Origin: Gemmatimonadaceae bacterium
GTDB lineage: Bacteria > Gemmatimonadota > Gemmatimonadetes > Gemmatimonadales > Gemmatimonadaceae
Length of the DNA: 64,000 nt
Direction of reading: 5' to 3'
Assembly: GCA_036496605.1 (NCBI GenBank)
Contig: DASXKV010000025.1
Span: 62,001-126,000, forward strand
How positions within the stretch are numbered: the first letter of the stretch is position 1; each line of letters opens with the position of its first letter. The notes beneath the pieces were generated by a model. That model had not been told where the DNA came from. It did no database searches and saw nothing but the letters and a program-made list of their open reading frames with translations. The translations under genes and the position numbers were made by a program. Positions 5,597 to 63,215 of this stretch are shown in pieces.

Positions 5597-6766
5597 ATGA
5601 TTATCGCGATTGCATTGCTCGCTCTTGCAGCGTCGATGTGCGAGGCGCAAGCGCCATCTTCCGGAACAACGAGCTTCGTTCTCGAGGGCAATCGGGTTTA
5701 CGCGCTGCTCAACTTTCTCGCGGCCGACGGTACTGCGCATCCCGCCTACGCCTATGTCGACATGGGCGCGTCCGACATGGCGCTCGCGGGCGACTTTTAC
5801 GACTCACTCGGGGTGAACACCGGCGCGCCCGCTCGATTCAAGGTCGGAGACTATACTGTCGAAGTGCCCTCATCGAATATTCGGCGCGGTGGACGGACTC
5901 TGGTGCGCGGCTCCCGCCCGCAACTCGTGGGTTCGCTGCCGGCGTCGGTGCTCCAGCGCCACACGCTCATCCTCGACTACGCGCGCAAGACCCTGACGCT
6001 CGCCGGTCCCGGAGTCGTTGCGCCGAGCGGGACGCCAGTGCTGTTCCGGCTCGACACAGCGACGGGTCTCATTGTCGTCGACGTCGCGATCGACGGCGAG
6101 ACCTATCCCGTAACGATAGACAATGGCTCCGCCTACACCTGGTTTCGACAGGAGGCCGTCAAGCAGTGGCTGCGCCGTCATCCCGATTGGAAACGCGGTG
6201 TCGGCGCGGTCGGTACCGCGAACATGATGCTCCGAGGCGAGGAGCCCGAACGTGAGGGAATTCTCATTCGGATACCGGAGCTCTCGATTGGCTCGGTTCG
6301 GCTGACAGGAGTGGGCGTGGTCGGCGTCGCAGGCGCACGGGGCGCCGACACGACTCTTACGCTGATGGATTGGTACTCGAAGAAGAACGTCGTCCCCGTG
6401 CTGGGATGGCTCGGCGGCAACGTTCTCAAAGAATTCCAGATCACGGTCGACTACCAGCGGCGCGTGATGTATTGGCTGCGCGAGTCGGCCGCCGACACGA
6501 CGGACCTGCATCAGATCGGGTTGACGCTCCGCACAGCGAGCGGCGCCGTGTACGTCGCTGGGGTTGCGACGAAGAACGGAAGGCCGACGGTCGACGGCGT
6601 ATTGGCAGGCGACAAGTTGATCAGCGTCGGCGGCCACGAGCTCGTGGCGGGCACGATCGGTCAGATCTTTGAATCAATGCACGGTGTACCGGGCGAGACC
6701 CGCGAGCTGGTGCTCGAGCGCAATGGCGCGCGCTTCACAGTGAGAGCGACCATCACGGCGTTCTGA
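5597..6766 (+). CDS. Secreted retropepsin-like protein with C-terminal PDZ domain
   Basis: The start at 5597 gives a clean signal peptide (MIIAIALLALAASMCEAQA); seven more codons upstream are possible but spoil it. Two pepsin-like half-domains follow, with AYVDMGASDMA (about residue 60) and VTIDNGSAYTW (about residue 185) where active proteases carry D-T/S-G. A PDZ domain occupies the last 80 residues (DGVLAGDKLISVGGHELV). The catalytic Asp is kept in both lobes, but the second residue is Met or Asn. It is expected in the periplasm or outside the cell. It may be a divergent protease or a binding protein. Confidence 0.75.
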   Translation: MIIAIALLALAASMCEAQAPSSGTTSFVLEGNRVYALLNFLAADGTAHPAYAYVDMGASDMALAGDFYDSLGVNTGAPARFKVGDYTVEVPSSNIRRGGRTLVRGSRPQLVGSLPASVLQRHTLILDYARKTLTLAGPGVVAPSGTPVLFRLDTATGLIVVDVAIDGETYPVTIDNGSAYTWFRQEAVKQWLRRHPDWKRGVGAVGTANMMLRGEEPEREGILIRIPELSIGSVRLTGVGVVGVAGARGADTTLTLMDWYSKKNVVPVLGWLGGNVLKEFQITVDYQRRVMYWLRESAADTTDLHQIGLTLRTASGAVYVAGVATKNGRPTVDGVLAGDKLISVGGHELVAGTIGQIFESMHGVPGETRELVLERNGARFTVRATITAF

Positions 6767-6944
6767 ATGACAAGTGCCGCGTTAGGCGCATCTTGGATTC
6801 ACCCGCCGTGTCACTGCCGTCTTTGGCAGTATGCCTAACACGCTTCAAGAGTTTGTCCACTCGTTGGGCGCCGCGGCAGAACGAATCCGATATAGTGCGG
6901 GACTTCGATTTCCCTCTCTAACGTGGCGCAGCAGCGAGGTTATA

Positions 6945-8084: not shown

Positions 8085-8261
8085 TCACCTTTGCCTCCAG
8101 CAGAACGGCAGCCCTCTCGACCTAACGATTCCCGTCGGCCTCGCCTTCGGCCATCCGAATTCGTACTCCCTCGCGGTGTATGCCGCCGTATGCCAGCTTG
8201 GTGTCGGCCGCGAACGGTACACCACGACGATAGCAAAAACGTCGATGATCACGTTAGGCAT
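8085..8261 (-). CDS. Hypothetical 58-residue protein, downstream partner of a family B gene
   Basis: Begins MPNVIIDVFAIVVVYRSRP, with ATG one base after the TAG of the family B gene at 8263-8586, so the two are very probably co-translated. The GCCTAACG octamer spans codons 2-4. The sequence looks beta-rich. No known family. Confidence 0.5.
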   Translation of the reverse strand: MPNVIIDVFAIVVVYRSRPTPSWHTAAYTAREYEFGWPKARPTGIVRSRGLPFCWRQR

Positions 8262-8262
8262 T

Positions 8263-8586
8263 CTACTCGACGACCGATTGCTCCGGCGGCGAGGGATTGG
8301 CCATCGCACACCAGGCTCGGAGTTGATCCGGCCTCGCCTCGGCCCAGCCGCCCGGCAGCTCGGGCATTGGCACGAGGCGGCGGCGTTCGCCATCTGCCGC
8401 CTCGAACGCCAGCCAACCCTTCCTCACCATCGGCCGGAGCTGCGCTCGACGATCTCGGAACCGTCGTCGGTCGCGCCTCCCTGAGGGGGGGCCCGCGTTC
8501 TTTTGGCGACGCTCGGCGAGCGTGGGGTAGACGTCCCAGACTACCCAGTAACGTCCGGCATCGTCGGTGAAATCGCGGCAAGCCAT
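8263..8586 (-). CDS. Family B small protein (107 aa), copy 1
   Basis: One of three paralogues in this window (with 9611-9934 and 11039-11362). Shared pattern in order: MA(C/S)R.F.D..GR.W.VWDV.PT.AERR, a basic RRR stretch, then GWLAFE..DGERRRL.P.PE.P.GW.....L..WC....P. There is no signal peptide or transmembrane helix, so it is probably cytosolic. It begins upstream of the small gene at 8085-8261. Unlike the other two copies it has no CGTTAGGC directly before its ATG. Function unknown. Confidence 0.7.
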   Translation of the reverse strand: MACRDFTDDAGRYWVVWDVYPTLAERRQKNAGPPSGRRDRRRFRDRRAQLRPMVRKGWLAFEAADGERRRLVPMPELPGGWAEARPDQLRAWCAMANPSPPEQSVVE

Positions 8587-9091: not shown

Positions 9092-9502
9092 GTCTCGGAT
9101 GAGGGGCGACTCCCGACGCCTTACCCATTCATCGAGGCCATTGCTGAACGCATCCGCGCCGTCATTTCGCGGCAGCGCAGCCGTGCTGTCGAAGCAGAAG
9201 CCATCACCCTCGGCCTCGACCCGGCTGATTTCCGAGCACTCGCCGAGGGCCGACGTGGCATTGATGCGGCGTTCGTGGTTGACGCTGTTGCAGCGCTTGT
9301 TCGCGAGCACGCGATCGACCCGCACTGGCTGTTGACGGGTCGGTACGACGGCGCCATGCATCGGAGAGCGTTAGAGTTGGCTGAAGATGGAGGACAGCCC
9401 GACGTTCGCGGGTTGAAAAAGTTCATATCGGGGCACTATCGCCAGCTGCGTGCGGACTGGGTTTTGCTACGCTTCCTGCCCTTCCGACCATCGAGCGACT
9501 GA
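9092..9502 (+). pseudogene. Family A XRE-like small protein, copy 1 (start codon missing)
   Basis: This frame aligns along its length with the intact copy at 10538-10948: PF.EAIAERIRAVISRQ, then DAAFVVDAVAALVREHAIDPHWLLTG, YDGAMHRRALEL. The DPxWLLTG segment following a helix pair looks like the N-terminal region of XRE/CI-type helix-turn-helix proteins. After the in-frame stop at 9089 there is no ATG, GTG or TTG before 9275, while an ATG at 9099 is in another frame, so the 5' end probably carries an indel. If translated from 9275 the helix-turn-helix would be lost. It is followed by family B then C genes. Confidence 0.5.
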
Positions 9503-9610
9503 CTACTGCTCGAACCAGATGACGGCCGTGCGGGTTTGTTGTTCACGAGCGCCAATGGCGAGATGAAGTTCCTGGTTGGATGGTCATCCCCGCTCAATCG
9601 TTAGGCACCT

Positions 9611-9934
9611 ATGGCTTCCCGCGTGTTCACGGACGAAGGCGGACGACGGTGGACGGTCTGGGAGGTCCATCCGACGCTCGCCGAGCGTCGCGAGCGGAAT
9701 ACGGGTCCGCAGATAGGAACACGGGAGCGGCGGCGCGTGACCGGGCCGCGCGTATACGTCCCCTCGAAGATGGCGGACGGCTGGCTGGCCTTTGAGTCGA
9801 GTGACGGCGAGCGCCGTCGCCTTGCGCCCATTCCTGAGATCCCCAGTGGCTGGGACGCGGCGTCGGTTGACGAATTGTCTGCGTGGTGCGCGATAGCTAA
9901 CCCGGCACCATCGCCTCGAAGACTCCTCGAGTAA
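9611..9934 (+). CDS. Family B small protein (107 aa), copy 2
   Basis: Carries the family B pattern (WTVWEVHPTLAERR; GWLAFESSDGERRRLAPIPEIP; SGWDAASVDELSAWC). ATG is at 9611, 4 nt after a CGTTAGGC octamer (9599-9606). It lies between a family A and a family C gene on the same strand, with gaps of 108 and 49 bp. Soluble; function unknown. Confidence 0.7.
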   Translation: MASRVFTDEGGRRWTVWEVHPTLAERRERNTGPQIGTRERRRVTGPRVYVPSKMADGWLAFESSDGERRRLAPIPEIPSGWDAASVDELSAWCAIANPAPSPRRLLE

Positions 9935-9983
9935 ACGACTGTTCGCTTGTCCACGCTGGGCGCTCCAGCGAGGTTTTGGATCG

Positions 9984-10226
9984 ATGACCGAGCCATCGAA
10001 GCCTGCCGCCGAGTTACTCCGCGCAGCCCAACGAACCGCGCGACGGCTCATTGTCGACGGCGTCCCGTGGCTCGTGTATGAACTGCCGCCTCTGACGCTC
10101 GACCGCCGCAACACGCCGTCGCTCGTGTTCGAATCCGACACCTCGATCCGACGGGTTCGCGATTTTCCGCCCGATTGGCGGACGCTGAACGATGAGGATT
10201 TGTCGGCGTTGAGCTGGACAACCTGA
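9984..10226 (+). CDS. Family C small protein (80 aa), copy 1
   Basis: Family C pattern: a short N-terminal helix, a (V)PWLVYELP-type strand, SLVFESDTSIRRVRDFPPDW, and LNDEDLSALSW at the end. Relatives are at 11690-11893, 22739-22981 and 25374-25565. The order of motifs (W-V-Y/W-E, LxFE, RRV, P.W, L..LSW) mirrors a shortened family B protein. Function unknown. Confidence 0.65.
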   Translation: MTEPSKPAAELLRAAQRTARRLIVDGVPWLVYELPPLTLDRRNTPSLVFESDTSIRRVRDFPPDWRTLNDEDLSALSWTT

Positions 10227-10447
10227 GCTTGCCGATCGGAAGATCAGGAGTCACAGCCTGCACGTTTTCTGGACTGCGCCAATCAGGAGGATGGCCCTGT
10301 TGGGCAGTCTGCGGCGCCGCTCAGCGTGACCGCCTCAATTCGTGAAGCTCCTCGCCGGCGCCTAACGCGTCACTCGCGGGCAGCCGAGAGTGCAGAGGCT
10401 ACGACCCGAAATCCGTTCGGTTGCAGCGGCTCGGAAATGGGCCTTTC

Positions 10448-10463
10448 TGTGATCCGCGTCACA
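10448..10463. promoter_or_regulatory. CRP-type dyad TGTGA-N6-TCACA
   Basis: TGTGATCCGCGTCACA is a perfect match to the classical CRP half-site pair with 6-bp spacing. It lies about 75 bp upstream of the family A gene at 10538, in a 311-bp stretch that otherwise holds only a GCCTAACG octamer at 10360. A Crp/Fnr regulator is encoded at 26378, but its recognition helix differs from that of E. coli CRP, so the pairing is speculative. Confidence 0.4.
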
Positions 10464-10537
10464 CAGAGGTGCCCGGTCGTGTGCATCGATCTTGCACCAT
10501 TGTGCGTGTCGGCCCACCAGTTGCCTGAGGCCTCGCA

Positions 10538-10948
10538 GTGCTGTTCCCCTTCCTGAACGACCCCTACGCCGAAGCCATCGCGAAGCGCTGCCGCAGCGTA
10601 GTAGCACGCCAGCCAGGGAGTTGTCTCGACGCGGTCGCCGCCTCACTGAGCGTGCCGCGTGAGGCGCTCGGACAATTCATGAACGCGGAAGCGCGACGTA
10701 TCGATACCGTCTTTCTCATCGATCTCATGGCGGCATTCGTCTACGAGTGCGGCATCGATCCCACGTGGCTCCTCACGGGCGACTACGACGGCGAGATGCA
10801 CCGAAAGGCTCTCCTGCTCGGCGAAGACCGCGGCGCCCTCGGCGCGCGGGCCGTTCGCGATCTCGTCCAGCACGAATATCGAGAGTTACGTCCGGCGAAG
10901 CACTTCTTCTCACTCCCTGATCTGTGGGAGACTTCCCTCGGTAAGTAA
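10538..10948 (+). CDS. Family A XRE-like small protein, copy 2
   Basis: 136 residues from GTG. The segment LDAVAASLSVPREALGQF followed by RRIDTVFLIDLMAAFVYECGIDPTWLLTG reads like an XRE/CI helix-turn-helix: positioning helix, recognition-like helix, then the xxPxWLLTG exit common in phage-type repressors. The C-terminal 50 residues (YDGEMHRKALLLGED...HEYRELR) are shared only with copy 1. It may be a DNA-binding regulator of the neighbouring B genes; that role is inferred from position only. Confidence 0.65.
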   Translation: MLFPFLNDPYAEAIAKRCRSVVARQPGSCLDAVAASLSVPREALGQFMNAEARRIDTVFLIDLMAAFVYECGIDPTWLLTGDYDGEMHRKALLLGEDRGALGARAVRDLVQHEYRELRPAKHFFSLPDLWETSLGK

Positions 10949-11038
10949 GCAATGAGCGTTGTCAATATCTCCGCGAACGGCGCGCGCTGGCGTGCACTGG
11001 CCATTACGCGGGAAGACCTGCTGGTCGCTCGTTAGGCC

Positions 11039-11362
11039 ATGGCGTCGCGTGAGTTCGTTGACGGACGTGGACGGTCCTGGATTGTGTGGGATGTCCATCC
11101 GACGTTTGCAGAACGCCGTTATCGCCAGGAGGGACCGCCAGCGGGCGTCCGCGAGCGGCGACGCGTTGTCGACACGCGTCCGAAGCTCGCATCGAGCCTC
11201 AAGCAAGGTTGGCTCGCATTCGAAGCGAGCGATGGGGAGCGACGGCGACTCGCGCCGATCCCCGAGACGCCGCGAGGCTGGGCGGCCGCAACCGATGATC
11301 AACTGCGCACCTGGTGTGCACTGGCCAGTCCGGCGCCACCAGCTCGGCGACTCATCGAATAA
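11039..11362 (+). CDS. Family B small protein (107 aa), copy 3
   Basis: Closest in layout to copy 2: WIVWDVHPTFAERR, GWLAFEASDGERRRLAPIPETP, GWAAATDDQLRTWC. A CGTTAGGC octamer ends one base before its ATG. It follows a family A gene by 90 bp, repeating the A-B order of 9092-9934, and is followed after 4 bp by the next small gene. Confidence 0.7.
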   Translation: MASREFVDGRGRSWIVWDVHPTFAERRYRQEGPPAGVRERRRVVDTRPKLASSLKQGWLAFEASDGERRRLAPIPETPRGWAAATDDQLRTWCALASPAPPARRLIE

Positions 11363-11366
11363 GTGG

Positions 11367-11597
11367 ATGGCGAAACCATCCCTCACGCTCCTGCAGCGCA
11401 CCGTGATCCAGCGGCTACACGAGGCTGGCTTGGATGGCATCGCGGAATTCGCGAAGGACAACTGGTCCTTAGGCCAGCGGATTCCCGGTCACAGTAGACC
11501 TGAGTCGATGGATCCTCGAAACACGCAGTATCACGTACTCCTCGATGATTTCGAGCGCGCGAACGAGCAGGCCGACTCTACGGCCGTGGAAGATTAG
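11367..11597 (+). CDS. Hypothetical 76-residue protein
   Basis: ATG at 11367, four bases after the family B stop, so probably translationally coupled to it. Helical N-terminus (LLQRTVIQRLHEAGLDGIAEFAKDNW) and acidic C-terminus (LLDDFERANEQADSTAVED). No known domain. Confidence 0.55.
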   Translation: MAKPSLTLLQRTVIQRLHEAGLDGIAEFAKDNWSLGQRIPGHSRPESMDPRNTQYHVLLDDFERANEQADSTAVED

Positions 11598-11689: not shown

Positions 11690-11893
11690 TCACCGTCCCC
11701 AACTGAGCTCATACAGCGCGGCGCTTGATAATTCGCGCCAATGTGGCGGATAGTCGCGCACGCGGCGTGCAACGCTCTCGGTCTCGAAGACGAGGGACTG
11801 ACCGCACGGCCATGGTCCCGCGTGCTCGTACACACACCACGCCACTTTGTCGACGACAAAGCGGCGCTCGTCCATGTGCGGTGTGATTCCCAT
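11690..11893 (-). CDS. Family C small protein (67 aa), copy 2
   Basis: MGITPHMDERRFVVDKVAW, then SLVFETESVARRVRDYPPHW and LSSAALYELSWGR. ATG 11893 lies one base after the TAA of the upstream gene (11895-12146), which fixes the start and suggests translational coupling. Family C pattern as in copy 1; function unknown. Confidence 0.65.
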   Translation of the reverse strand: MGITPHMDERRFVVDKVAWCVYEHAGPWPCGQSLVFETESVARRVRDYPPHWRELSSAALYELSWGR

Positions 11894-11894
11894 G

Positions 11895-12146
11895 TTACCG
11901 CTCGTCAATCAAATGGAAGAGGCGGCGCTCCCATTCGGTGAGCGCGGCGCGGCGCTCTCGCAGCGAGAGTGCCTGCATTTCGCGAAAGGTTTGCATCTGA
12001 GCGTGGGCCAACTCACAGAGCGAGCGAGCGCGTGTGATCGCCGCTCTGGAGTCCGCAACAATGTCTGCGCGTTGCTCTGCGCGGTCGCGGGCAACTGTTT
12101 GCTCAGCGTCGTCCAGAATACTCCACGTTTCCAATCTTTGAAACAT
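11895..12146 (-). CDS. Hypothetical helical protein (83 aa)
   Basis: Highly helical and charged (DDAEQTVARDRAEQRADIVADS; EMQALSLRERRAALTEWERRL), probably a short coiled coil. It lies directly upstream of family C copy 2 with a one-base gap. No family recognised. Confidence 0.55.
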   Translation of the reverse strand: MFQRLETWSILDDAEQTVARDRAEQRADIVADSRAAITRARSLCELAHAQMQTFREMQALSLRERRAALTEWERRLFHLIDER

Positions 12147-22437: not shown

Positions 22438-22738
22438 TGGGTGCTGAGGAACCAGGAAAACTCATCAAAGAAACTCACACCGATGCCTACGATCCGATGG
22501 CGCGGGAGAGAACAAGCCAAAGAAGCGACGCGGCGCCGGATAAGAGGAGCAGCGGTGTGGCGCCATACTTTCAGCGACCGGGTGCTACCGTCGCTACTTG
22601 TGAATCGTTAGGCGCAACGAACATGGCGATCTCTTCACGCTCGTTCAAGCTGTCGGCTCGGGACGTAGGCGCACTAATGCGCCAGGGAACGGCACCGCCT
22701 GAATAGGCGCAGGAGTTGCAAGCCGTCCAGTCCCTTTG
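22438..22738. other. Intergenic stretch with an octamer copy
   Basis: Holds CGTTAGGC at 22606-22613, followed after 10 bases by an ATG opening a 27-codon frame (MAISSRSFKLSARDV...) that is too short to judge. Nothing else is supported. Confidence 0.35.
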
Positions 22739-22981
22739 ATGCGAGGCGGCACGTTGCCGCGGCGGCGATACGGTGATGACGGACGGCCACGAAGGCATCA
22801 GGCTGAGGTCCGCTTTGAAGTTGGCGGCGAAGCATGGGCCGTCTGGGAAGACCTTCGCAATCCGGCCTGCCCGTCGTTGGTGTTCGAAAATACGAAGAGC
22901 GCCCGCCGCGTATCCGAGTATCCTCCGCATTGGCGCCAGCTCCCGGCCGAGGAGCTCCATGCGCTCAGCTGGTCGCGCTAA
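22739..22981 (+). CDS. Family C small protein (80 aa), copy 3
   Basis: EVRFEVGGEAWAVWEDL, then SLVFENTKSARRVSEYPPHW and LPAEELHALSW. ATG 22739 is the first start after the preceding stop; the first 20 residues are basic and may not be original. It ends 16 bp before the PPC-domain gene. Family C pattern as at 9984 and 11690. Confidence 0.6.
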   Translation: MRGGTLPRRRYGDDGRPRRHQAEVRFEVGGEAWAVWEDLRNPACPSLVFENTKSARRVSEYPPHWRQLPAEELHALSWSR

Positions 22982-25373: not shown

Positions 25374-25565
25374 ATGGATGCCCGAACGCGAGTGTTTCCC
25401 TTCGACGGCGAGATCTGGACGGTTCGCGAGCAGCTGGCGCCACCGGACTGGGTGCCGACCCTGATGTTCAGCACGGATCTTCGGGCCCGGCGCGTCCGCA
25501 GATACCCTGACGCGTGGTACGAGCTCACGGAGCGAGAGCTGAACGTCCTCGCGTGGGGCCGTTAG
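25374..25565 (+). CDS. Family C small protein (63 aa), copy 4
   Basis: MDARTRVFPFDGEIWTVREQL, TLMFSTDLRARRVRRYPDAWYEL and LTERELNVLAWGR give the family C pattern. GTG 25335 is a possible longer start. The TAG stop is part of a CGTTAGGC octamer (25560-25567), and a second octamer follows 68 bp later. Confidence 0.6.
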   Translation: MDARTRVFPFDGEIWTVREQLAPPDWVPTLMFSTDLRARRVRRYPDAWYELTERELNVLAWGR

Positions 25566-25661
25566 GCAAGGAGAGCCAGCGCTGGCGTGACCGACGCAAA
25601 GCGCGGAGCTCCTGGTGCAACATCGTTCGTTAGGCAGCCCACCATCGACGCGTAGTTACGG

Positions 25662-27477: not shown

Positions 27478-27982
27478 AACGAGTTTTCAATGGTGGAAAT
27501 GGCGTATACAAGAACGGTGCCGAGAGGCTCGAAGGAGCTCACACACATGAAGCATTAACTGATCAAGCTCGAAAGGCTTTACGAGAAATGTTGTGGCATA
27601 ATCGCAATGCCGTCGGCGTAAGTCGCGAGCTCGCGTAGGAACTTCCCATCGAACTGGCGCGACCTTCGTGACACGGTGCTCTTCGAGGTACGCTTCTCAC
27701 GCGAGAGCGCGAGCCGGATGACAACGCATCCAATCCGATGTGGCGCCTGACTTGCAAACAAAACGGGGCTTCGCCAGTGCGGTGGCGAGACTGCTGCGCG
27801 CAAAACAGTTCTTTGGTGTCGGCGAGGAGTTCCTGACCATCCAGCAACTAAGACTTCACCGTCGCGAGCAGCACTCGCAGACGTCACCTGCTGCGCCGCA
27901 AATCCAGTCGCAAAACGACGAAAACGGCGAAGTGTTCTGAGCGCTACACGTGTTATCCCTAGCGCGACTGCTGTCGGAGGCG

Positions 27983-61642: not shown

Positions 61643-61648
61643 TGAGCA

Positions 61649-61780
61649 CTCTCAGATGCCATGATGCTCGGGGCGCGCCGCAGAGAGCTTTCAGGTCGCC
61701 CATGCCCCGGGCGGAGCAAATCGCGAAACCGGCTGAGGGGGATGCCACGACGACGGCACCCCTCAGCCGCTTTTGTTTTC
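61649..61780 (+). ncRNA. Structured leader or small RNA, unassigned
   Basis: Between a good promoter and an intrinsic terminator. Local helices are visible (GAGCA...TGCTC near 61650-61675; GGGGC...GCCCC near 61675-61715), followed by the terminator hairpin. It does not match, by eye, the cores of SAM, TPP, FMN, cobalamin, glycine or c-di-GMP riboswitches. Either an attenuator for the downstream gene or a free small RNA of about 130 nt. Confidence 0.35.
61731..61777 (+). terminator. Intrinsic terminator
   Basis: GGCTGAGGGG-GATGCC, loop, GGCA-CCCCTCAGCC, then GCTTTTGTTTT: a long GC stem with a T tract, 41 bp upstream of the haloperoxidase start. Confidence 0.75.
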
Positions 61781-61817
61781 CCATCGTCGGTATCCGGCCG
61801 CAGGCCCGGAGGAACGA

Positions 61818-63215
61818 ATGAACTGGAGTGGACCGAAGCACCTCATGCGCCTCGCAGCGGTGGCGCCACTCGCGGTCTCGGTCGCGACGCTCTTCGCGTG
61901 TTCCGAGCGGCCCACCGACCCGTCGAGCTTTCCGTCTGTCGCGCGCGCCGATGCTGTTGCCGACCGGTTAGGCAATGACCGTTTCGACGGTGCCGCGACC
62001 ACACTCGCCTGGGAGCAAACCACCCGCGACCTCGTCGCGAATCGTAAAGCAACGCCGATAAACGCCGTGCGCTTGTACGCGCTGCACAGCCTCGCCGTCT
62101 ATGCCGCGGTGGTCGCCGTCCAGGACGGCGACAACGACGACGCCGACGATCAGGGTGGTGGGCGCGCGGCGTTCGAAGCCCGACGCGGCGCGATTGGCGG
62201 CGCATCGGCGCAACTCCTCTCCGCCCTGTCTCCGCCCGATGCACCCGCGCTCGAAGCGCAGCTCGCTGCTTCGGGGCGAGATGCGTCCGGTCGCACGTCT
62301 CCGCAGTTCACGCGTGGCGTGAGCGTCGGACGAGGAGTGGGTGCCGTGCTGATCGCCTGGGCGAATAACGACGGATTCTCGTTGGCGTGGAACGAGAGCA
62401 TGCGAAACGCGTCGGGACCCGGCATCTGGGAGGGAGCCCCAGCAGTAGGAACAGTTCCCCGGCCGGCGCCGGCCGGTTATCAATTCCCCACGATGACGCC
62501 CTACTTCTTGACAGCGTTAGGCGGTCACACGGCGCAGAGCCAGTTCCGGTCGTCACCACCGCCCGCGTTCTCGATGGCGCTGGGTAGCCCGTACAGGATT
62601 GCCCTCGACGAGGTGAGAGCGATCTCCGATACTCGAACGCTGGAGCAGACCGACATCGCTTACTTCTGGAATCTCGCGGCGGGCACGATGACGGCGCTCG
62701 GCTATTGGGATAATCAGGCTGCGTCGTTCATCGAATCGCGCGGGCTCGACGAGCAATCCGCGTCGCACCTGTTCGCTCTCTTGAATGCCGCGGCGATGGA
62801 CGCGACGATCGGCTGCTGGGAGGCGAAGGTCCATTACTTCATGCTGCGTCCGTCCATGGCGGATCCGTTGATCACGCGGCCGACGCTCGAGCGGCCGAAT
62901 GGGCCACCTGCTTTCCCGTACACACTACCGAACCATCCGTCATATCCTTCGGGACACTCCTGCGTCTCGTCTGCCGCGGCCACGGTGCTCTCGCAATACT
63001 TCCCGGATCAGGCCGCGCAGCTCCAAGCGCAGGTAATCCAAGCGGGATTGTCGCGCATCTATGGCGGCATCCATTACCGGTTCGACGTCGAGGCGGGACA
63101 GGTGCTTGGCCGCTCGACCGCGGAATGGGCGATGGCCTATGACCGTCGGCACGGTCTCCTCGCGGCCATTGGACTCGGTGGACACAAGGAGGGCGGGGAC
63201 GACGGCCGCGAATGA
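61818..63215 (+). CDS. Vanadium-dependent haloperoxidase/PAP2-family lipoprotein
   Basis: 465 residues from ATG after GGAGGAAC. Lipoprotein signal (APLAVSVATLFACSE). Vanadate/phosphate-binding residues are in order: K-VHYFML-RP (KX6RP), YPSGHSCVS (PSGH) and SRIYGGIHYRFD (SRX5H). The family oxidises halides or acts as acid phosphatase; which applies cannot be told from sequence alone. The terminator and leader upstream suggest regulated expression. Confidence 0.88.
   Translation: MNWSGPKHLMRLAAVAPLAVSVATLFACSERPTDPSSFPSVARADAVADRLGNDRFDGAATTLAWEQTTRDLVANRKATPINAVRLYALHSLAVYAAVVAVQDGDNDDADDQGGGRAAFEARRGAIGGASAQLLSALSPPDAPALEAQLAASGRDASGRTSPQFTRGVSVGRGVGAVLIAWANNDGFSLAWNESMRNASGPGIWEGAPAVGTVPRPAPAGYQFPTMTPYFLTALGGHTAQSQFRSSPPPAFSMALGSPYRIALDEVRAISDTRTLEQTDIAYFWNLAAGTMTALGYWDNQAASFIESRGLDEQSASHLFALLNAAAMDATIGCWEAKVHYFMLRPSMADPLITRPTLERPNGPPAFPYTLPNHPSYPSGHSCVSSAAATVLSQYFPDQAAQLQAQVIQAGLSRIYGGIHYRFDVEAGQVLGRSTAEWAMAYDRRHGLLAAIGLGGHKEGGDDGRE

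Follow-up and report, generated by a model that had tools for sequence, protein, structure and literature searches.

The question raised by this locus is what kind of unit is formed by a repressor-like gene and the small, rapidly diverging genes that follow it, when the same arrangement is found twice in a row. The locus lies in a window of 64,000 nucleotides (by the window we mean the whole stretch of DNA that was analysed) from a Gemmatimonadaceae bacterium, a soil organism of the Gemmatimonas type. The original prediction left three kinds of module side by side, regulatory, toxin-antitoxin and defence-type. The most likely answer is that the module is real, recurrent, undescribed and of a regulatory type; the evidence speaks against reading it as a toxin-antitoxin system, a defence system or a set of integron cassettes.

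The two tandem units

Two putative mini-operons, A1-B1-C1 and A2-B2-X, lie adjacent and in tandem at 9.1-11.6 kb of the window. They and the related features of the window are the following:

8263..8586, minus strand: B3, third 107-aa B paralogue, on the opposite strand, without an adjoining same-strand A gene
9101..9502 (open frame 9092-9502), plus strand: A1, XRE-like regulator gene; the stop codon ends at 9502
9599..9606, plus strand: CGTTAGGC directly 5' of B1, one of about 3,400 genomic copies
9611..9934, plus strand: B1, 107-aa small protein of the B/C superfamily
9984..10226, plus strand: C1, 80-aa small protein, short form of the B/C superfamily
10446..10467, strand not given: TCTGTGATCCGCGTCACACAGA, a TGTG-N8-CACA inverted repeat 5' of A2
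10527..10948, plus strand: A2, regulator of XRE-like type, with GAGG at 10527-10530 and a GTG start codon at 10538; the stop codon ends at 10948
11030..11037, plus strand: CGTTAGGC directly 5' of B2, a genome-wide motif
11039..11362, plus strand: B2, 107-aa paralogue of B1, 64% identical to it
11367..11597, plus strand: X, 76-aa small ORF, 4 bp past B2
11690..11908, minus strand: C paralogue on the opposite strand, convergent with X
22736..22981, plus strand: C paralogue elsewhere in the window
25374..25565, plus strand: C paralogue elsewhere in the window, with its TAG stop codon inside CGTTAGGC (25560-25567)
27622..27747, plus strand: perhaps what is left of a C gene (E-values 0.002-0.005, and 1e-4 in one further search)

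When the coordinates were re-checked, the open reading frames, their order and their spacing were as originally described, with A-B gaps of 108 bp in the first unit and 90 bp in the second. Scans for promoters and terminators gave signals at chance level.

Towards the end of the window a c-di-GMP-II-GAG riboswitch (Rfam RF03169, 53 bits) is found at 61645-61743, upstream of a 480-aa ORF at 61773-63215.

The A protein

A1 and A2 are 45% identical (E 6e-26). The A proteins of the window give nothing beyond noise when compared with Pfam, and sequence searches of the PDB with A, B and C gave no credible match. There are weak matches of A1 to phage-repressor-type profiles (phrog_9710, 1e-4; phrog_2328, 0.013). 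The copy of A in G001, a genome of the same genus, matches HTH_19 with an E-value of 8e-6 (26.1 bits, gathering cut-off 30.2), and relatives of A match HTH_31 with E-values of 4e-4 (21.2 bits, cut-off 27) and 0.012, and HTH_3/HTH_19 with E-values of about 0.05-0.08; all XRE matches of A and its relatives are thus under the curated cut-offs. The AlphaFold model of A2, built from seven sequences (pLDDT 83), has the XRE helix order, and the structures closest to it are nearly all XRE/CI proteins, at Z values up to 5.8 over 70-84 residues and Foldseek E-values of 0.5 or worse; for a helical protein, Z values of 5-6 are modest. The sub-threshold XRE profile matches, the repressor-type phrogs and the predicted fold together point to an XRE-like character of A. 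The suggestion that A is repressor-like is supported, and our reading of A is that of a diverged member of the XRE (Cro/CI) helix-turn-helix regulators, one which would bind DNA. It is found in 10 of the 179 genomes of the family, spread over four genera, with five copies in the genome of the window, and is much rarer than B and C.

Conservation at the protein level had been set beforehand as a test of the open reading frames. In the B pairs identity ranges from 0.72 to 0.84 at second codon positions and from 0.36 to 0.50 at third ones, except for the closest pair (B3 and its counterpart in G002), where the values are 0.85 and 0.72; dN is 0.16-0.38 and lies below dS in every pair. The A genes show the same pattern, with second codon positions far better conserved than third and dN well below dS, and for C dN is below dS with lower confidence, the more distant C pairs being too short and saturated to judge well. 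It should be added that dS is often saturated in the comparisons of A, B and C. Since second positions are better conserved than third and dN is lower than dS, A and B are evolving as proteins under purifying selection, and so, with lower confidence, is C.

The start of A is unusual. A1 has no ATG, GTG or TTG in frame between the upstream stop codon and the helix-turn-helix core; a Shine-Dalgarno-like GAGG is found at 9101-9104, and the codon aligned with the starts of the other A genes is a CTC at 9110. In all six A genes of the genus a GGAG or GAGG lies 5-8 nt 5' of the aligned start codon, which is CTC in A1, GTG in A2, CTG in three genes and TTG in one (the other loci of the genus with such a sequence before an aligned non-ATG codon are L042, L043, L113 and L115). 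The background rate of such a sequence is 4.6%; the pattern was noticed, and its probability computed, after the fact. Three of the six genes lack any canonical start codon ahead of the core, and a fourth has only a TTG, 29 codons upstream. The pattern suggests that A genes of the genus habitually initiate at non-AUG codons, and frequent use of CTG may explain why A1 has no normal start, its CTC being the least convincing of the six and perhaps decayed. That A1 is a broken gene was considered and set aside, since its third and second codon positions behave as in the other A genes and the Shine-Dalgarno sequence is kept before the aligned start in all six; weak non-AUG initiation of a regulator needed at low level fits the sequences better.

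The B/C superfamily

B and C were originally described as two families. They are indeed real and related proteins, but profile searches unite them in one superfamily, with the signature D..G..W.VWEV.P ... GWL.FES..ERRRL.PIP..W....L. The small partners do diversify as claimed: B1 is 64% identical to B2 and 55% to B3 (range among the three 55-64%, E 1e-36 to 1e-45), and C1 is related to the ORFs at 11690, 22736 and 25374 with E-values from 1e-13 to 2e-5. The genome of the window carries about 22 B-like and about 19 C-like genes as compared to the five A genes. Among 395 Gemmatimonadota genomes 56 contain B-like genes; they belong to the host family and to a second family of its class. C-like genes are present in 51 of the 179 family genomes. 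A B search with a narrower alignment found matches in Gemmatimonadota only. Many B and C genes are solitary or arranged as B-B and B-C pairs, and some proteins consist of two B domains. X has a relative next to a C-C pair on contig C49 (E 1.6e-7), so that both units take their small genes from a common pool.

That the set of families is undescribed is also supported, as B and C fit no family in Pfam or NCBIfam and ten proteins compared with the PADLOC models gave no match up to an E-value of 1. Relatives of B were absent from the phage, plasmid and viral-contig collections searched, and relatives of A from the viral contigs searched. The AlphaFold model of B (pLDDT 77) has four strands, short helices and a disordered basic linker. 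A fold search with it against the PDB and viral structures gave no convincing match (best Z 3.7), an absence that proves nothing. The most conserved residues are W, G, P and R, which look structural and form no clear catalytic set.

Linkage of A with B and C

A B or C gene is found within 700 bp of nine of the 18 A-like loci, in eight cases on the same strand, where chance would give a neighbour at about 1.2% of the loci (41 B/C genes in 5.97 Mb; P about 3e-13). This probability was calculated after the pattern had been seen, some of the loci are orthologous and not independent, and one A gene lies at a contig end. The association is clear and non-random. Since the other half of the A-like genes stand without a B/C neighbour, and the majority of B and C genes without an A, B and C must also act without A.

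The original prediction asked for a survey of the gene order in Gemmatimonadota, and the order does recur. The full A-B-C order is present in a second species of the genus (G001, contig JAJKIR010000112.1: A 5644-6027, B 6287-6607, C 6713-6889), and A followed by B in two genomes of another genus, g15 (G381:C47 and G420:C71). B followed by A is seen at what is apparently one orthologous locus in three species, and contigs C38 and C35 of the window's genome, as well as G002, carry B-C pairs with no A gene. The neighbouring fabH-like gene, looked for as an anchor for synteny, has no close copy in the relatives.

Two observations on the surroundings of these genes may be recorded. In three genomes of the genus (L034, L114, L118) a B gene, in two of them a B-C pair, adjoins the same large downstream gene, and this is an old conserved site of the family. 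The CRP/FNR-like TGTG-N8-CACA repeat 5' of A2 has a similar counterpart 5' of the A gene of G001, i.e. it is present at two of the six A genes only.

The octamer CGTTAGGC

The octamer in front of each B start, ending 4 nt 5' of B1 and 1 nt 5' of B2, is where it was said to be, but as a feature of the module it is not borne out. It is an iterated motif and the most over-represented octamer of the whole genome, with 38 copies in the window against 1.2 expected (among them those at 1007, 8252, 9599, 11030 and 49354), 311 against 8.5 expected in a 522-kb sample (36-fold), and 3411 genome-wide against 408 for the reversed pattern. Every stretch sampled has 1.5-9.5 copies per 10 kb. Some 74% of the copies lie inside genes, where the octamer supplies 84 of 246 TTA codons, which are rare, and 19 of 207 TAA/TAG stop codons of the predicted genes. 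It ranks first also in samples of four other genomes (G018, G022, G029, G032), and so in several related genera though not in all; in many genera of the family no more than a handful of copies is present. A further copy lies 5' of the B gene on contig C38. The octamer is found at the starts of three of 42 A/B/C genes and of five of 438 other genes (p 0.026, the paralogues not being independent).

Several functions were considered for the octamer. A ribosome-binding site or a toxin-antitoxin operator was rejected, as most copies are inside genes. As a strand-polar signal of the Chi or KOPS type it lacks strand bias (1661 against 1750 copies, a comparison limited by the draft assembly). By its pattern it could be an uptake-sequence-like or HIP1-like motif; no paper on it in Gemmatimonas was found in the literature. 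The octamer is the most surprising side finding of the analysis and merits its own study. It could be a new signal, for uptake or of genome architecture, or else something that connects transformation with integrons.

A possible regulatory operon and the alternatives

Our preferred reading, to which we give a probability of roughly 0.45, is that each unit is a small regulatory operon made up of an XRE regulator and small swappable co-regulators. It rests on the families and their homology, the selection on the proteins, the linkage of A and B, its recurrence, and the XRE-like character of A in sequence and fold. A would be an XRE (Cro/CI-type) DNA-binding regulator, co-transcribed with its partners and perhaps autoregulated. 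Within its genus its level of translation would be low, with a weak start codon, probably often CTG, placed behind a good Shine-Dalgarno sequence. The downstream B and C proteins, small, beta-rich, rich in arginine and tryptophan and belonging to one phylum-specific superfamily, would act as co-regulators which bind A or each other and in this way alter DNA binding by A and the regulatory output; possibly they act in trans on other XRE proteins too. Duplication and shuffling would then have given the combinations A-B-C, A-B-X, B-C and B-A and the many stand-alone B and C genes. If this is right, a phylum of common and little-studied soil bacteria would have evolved independently a large XRE network with small interchangeable partners, comparable to the one controlling development and antibiotics in Streptomyces, and the B/C superfamily, which the libraries used here do not describe, would obtain a function and testable partners.

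The strongest competitor, which we regard as a plausible but distinctly weaker explanation, is that the B and C proteins form a phylum-specific family of adaptors or stress proteins with a job of its own, A being simply a local repressor of some copies. The distribution speaks for it, since B reaches 56 of the 395 Gemmatimonadota genomes and C 51 of the 179 family genomes, but A just 10 of 179, and so do the many stand-alone genes, the B-B and B-C pairs and the two-domain B-B proteins; against it stands an A-B linkage far above chance that is seen in two genera and in both orders. A type II toxin-antitoxin system, with A as the XRE antitoxin-repressor and B, C or X as the toxin, is unlikely. 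In such systems a small gene often comes after an XRE-like one, the genes here are small, fast-diverging and multi-copy, and the non-homologous XRE-DUF397 pairs were once proposed to be such systems (PMC10364602). The same XRE-DUF397 analogue failed the toxin-antitoxin tests (PMC10364602), however, and the obligate two-gene pairing of a type II system is not seen, most B and C genes being without A (about 41 B/C against five A in the genome of the window) and half of the A genes without B or C; nor is there a PADLOC, NCBIfam or Pfam match or, among the structural-looking W, G, P and R, a clear catalytic set. For an anti-phage defence module, which we consider very improbable, one can point to a repressor-like gene with small diversifying genes in a variable, gene-poor region, but PADLOC gave no match, none of the products was recognised as an effector, a nuclease or a membrane protein, and B was not found in the phage, plasmid and viral collections searched, nor A in the viral contigs. 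Of the three kinds of module first proposed, the regulatory one is favoured, and the toxin-antitoxin and defence-type ones are poorly supported.

The integron reading, which sees mobile cassettes in the small genes and attC core sites in the CGTTAGGC boxes, was favoured at first since GTTAGGC is the attC core, and was rejected on the pairing tests and the genome-wide counts; we give it as little credit as the defence module. The box is identical to the attC R' core and lies directly 5' of the start in three of the six close B genes, two IntI-type integrases are encoded in the genome, and the related genome G036 has true cassette arrays with canonical attC hairpins. Yet the octamer is spread over the genome, mostly within ordinary genes, without attC pairing: inverted pairs of the attC type number 18 and the opposite arrangement also 18, and strict attC hairpins are near chance level. 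No integrase is nearby, the matches over the cut-off being confined to contigs C50 and C31 and the window being on C25. These integron-integrase genes (TIGR02249; G000:C50:76280-78461 and C31:12830-13738; L053, L055) have no attC-spaced array beside them. The array in G036 (L133, G036:C95:1-20000) is long, with the same box and canonical hairpins about every 600 bp. Right after B3 there is an attC-like inverted octamer pair 140 nt apart (8120-8259); in the genome sample such pairs are no more frequent than chance predicts.

A more far-reaching combination of our findings is improbable, ranking just below the toxin-antitoxin system. It holds that B and C are a new phylum-specific class of small swappable co-regulators, that the XRE proteins which they serve start at CTG and are weakly translated, that the whole arose independently in Gemmatimonadota as a counterpart of the XRE-DUF397 network of Streptomyces, and also that CGTTAGGC at the gene edges is an uptake or recombination signal which spreads such small genes.

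Comparison with known systems

The octamer resembles DNA uptake sequences and HIP1-type motifs in being short, present in thousands of copies on both strands and mostly inside genes; it differs from them in sequence and host group and in coinciding with the attC core. Like an integron cassette array, the locus has small genes unrelated to each other and a box that equals the attC R' core, but here there is no attC hairpin and no array, and the box is genome-wide.

A is like the XRE/Cro-CI superfamily (HTH_3, HTH_19, HTH_31) in its predicted helix order, in the conserved WLLTG-type end of the DNA-binding domain and in its weak but repeated profile and fold matches. It is unlike it in lying under every curated cut-off, in its extra C-terminal helix and in the frequent non-ATG start position within the genus.

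The closest parallel is offered by the XRE-DUF397 pairs (WhiJ/BldB-type) of actinomycetes. In Streptomyces coelicolor 14 such pairs are pleiotropic regulators and not toxin-antitoxin systems (PMC10364602); the small partners have a median of 19 paralogues per genome, and BldB hetero-oligomerises with its paralogues (PMC10294661). In both cases an XRE gene is followed by a small partner (here in the window, G001, G381 and G420), and there is lineage-specific growth to dozens of paralogues (about 22 B and 19 C here). The differences are that B and C have no DUF397 domain and no Pfam match, that the motifs KSSYSG, CVEVA and VRDSK (PMC10294661) are missing from their alignments, that A is about 136 aa long without the DUF5753 C-terminal domain, and that the phylum is another one and often has two small partners in a row. 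As B and C are not DUF397 proteins, the relation is one of analogy and not of membership, the partner side not being homologous. By this analogy we propose that the working principle is the same: A would bind DNA, and B and C would modulate A and one another.
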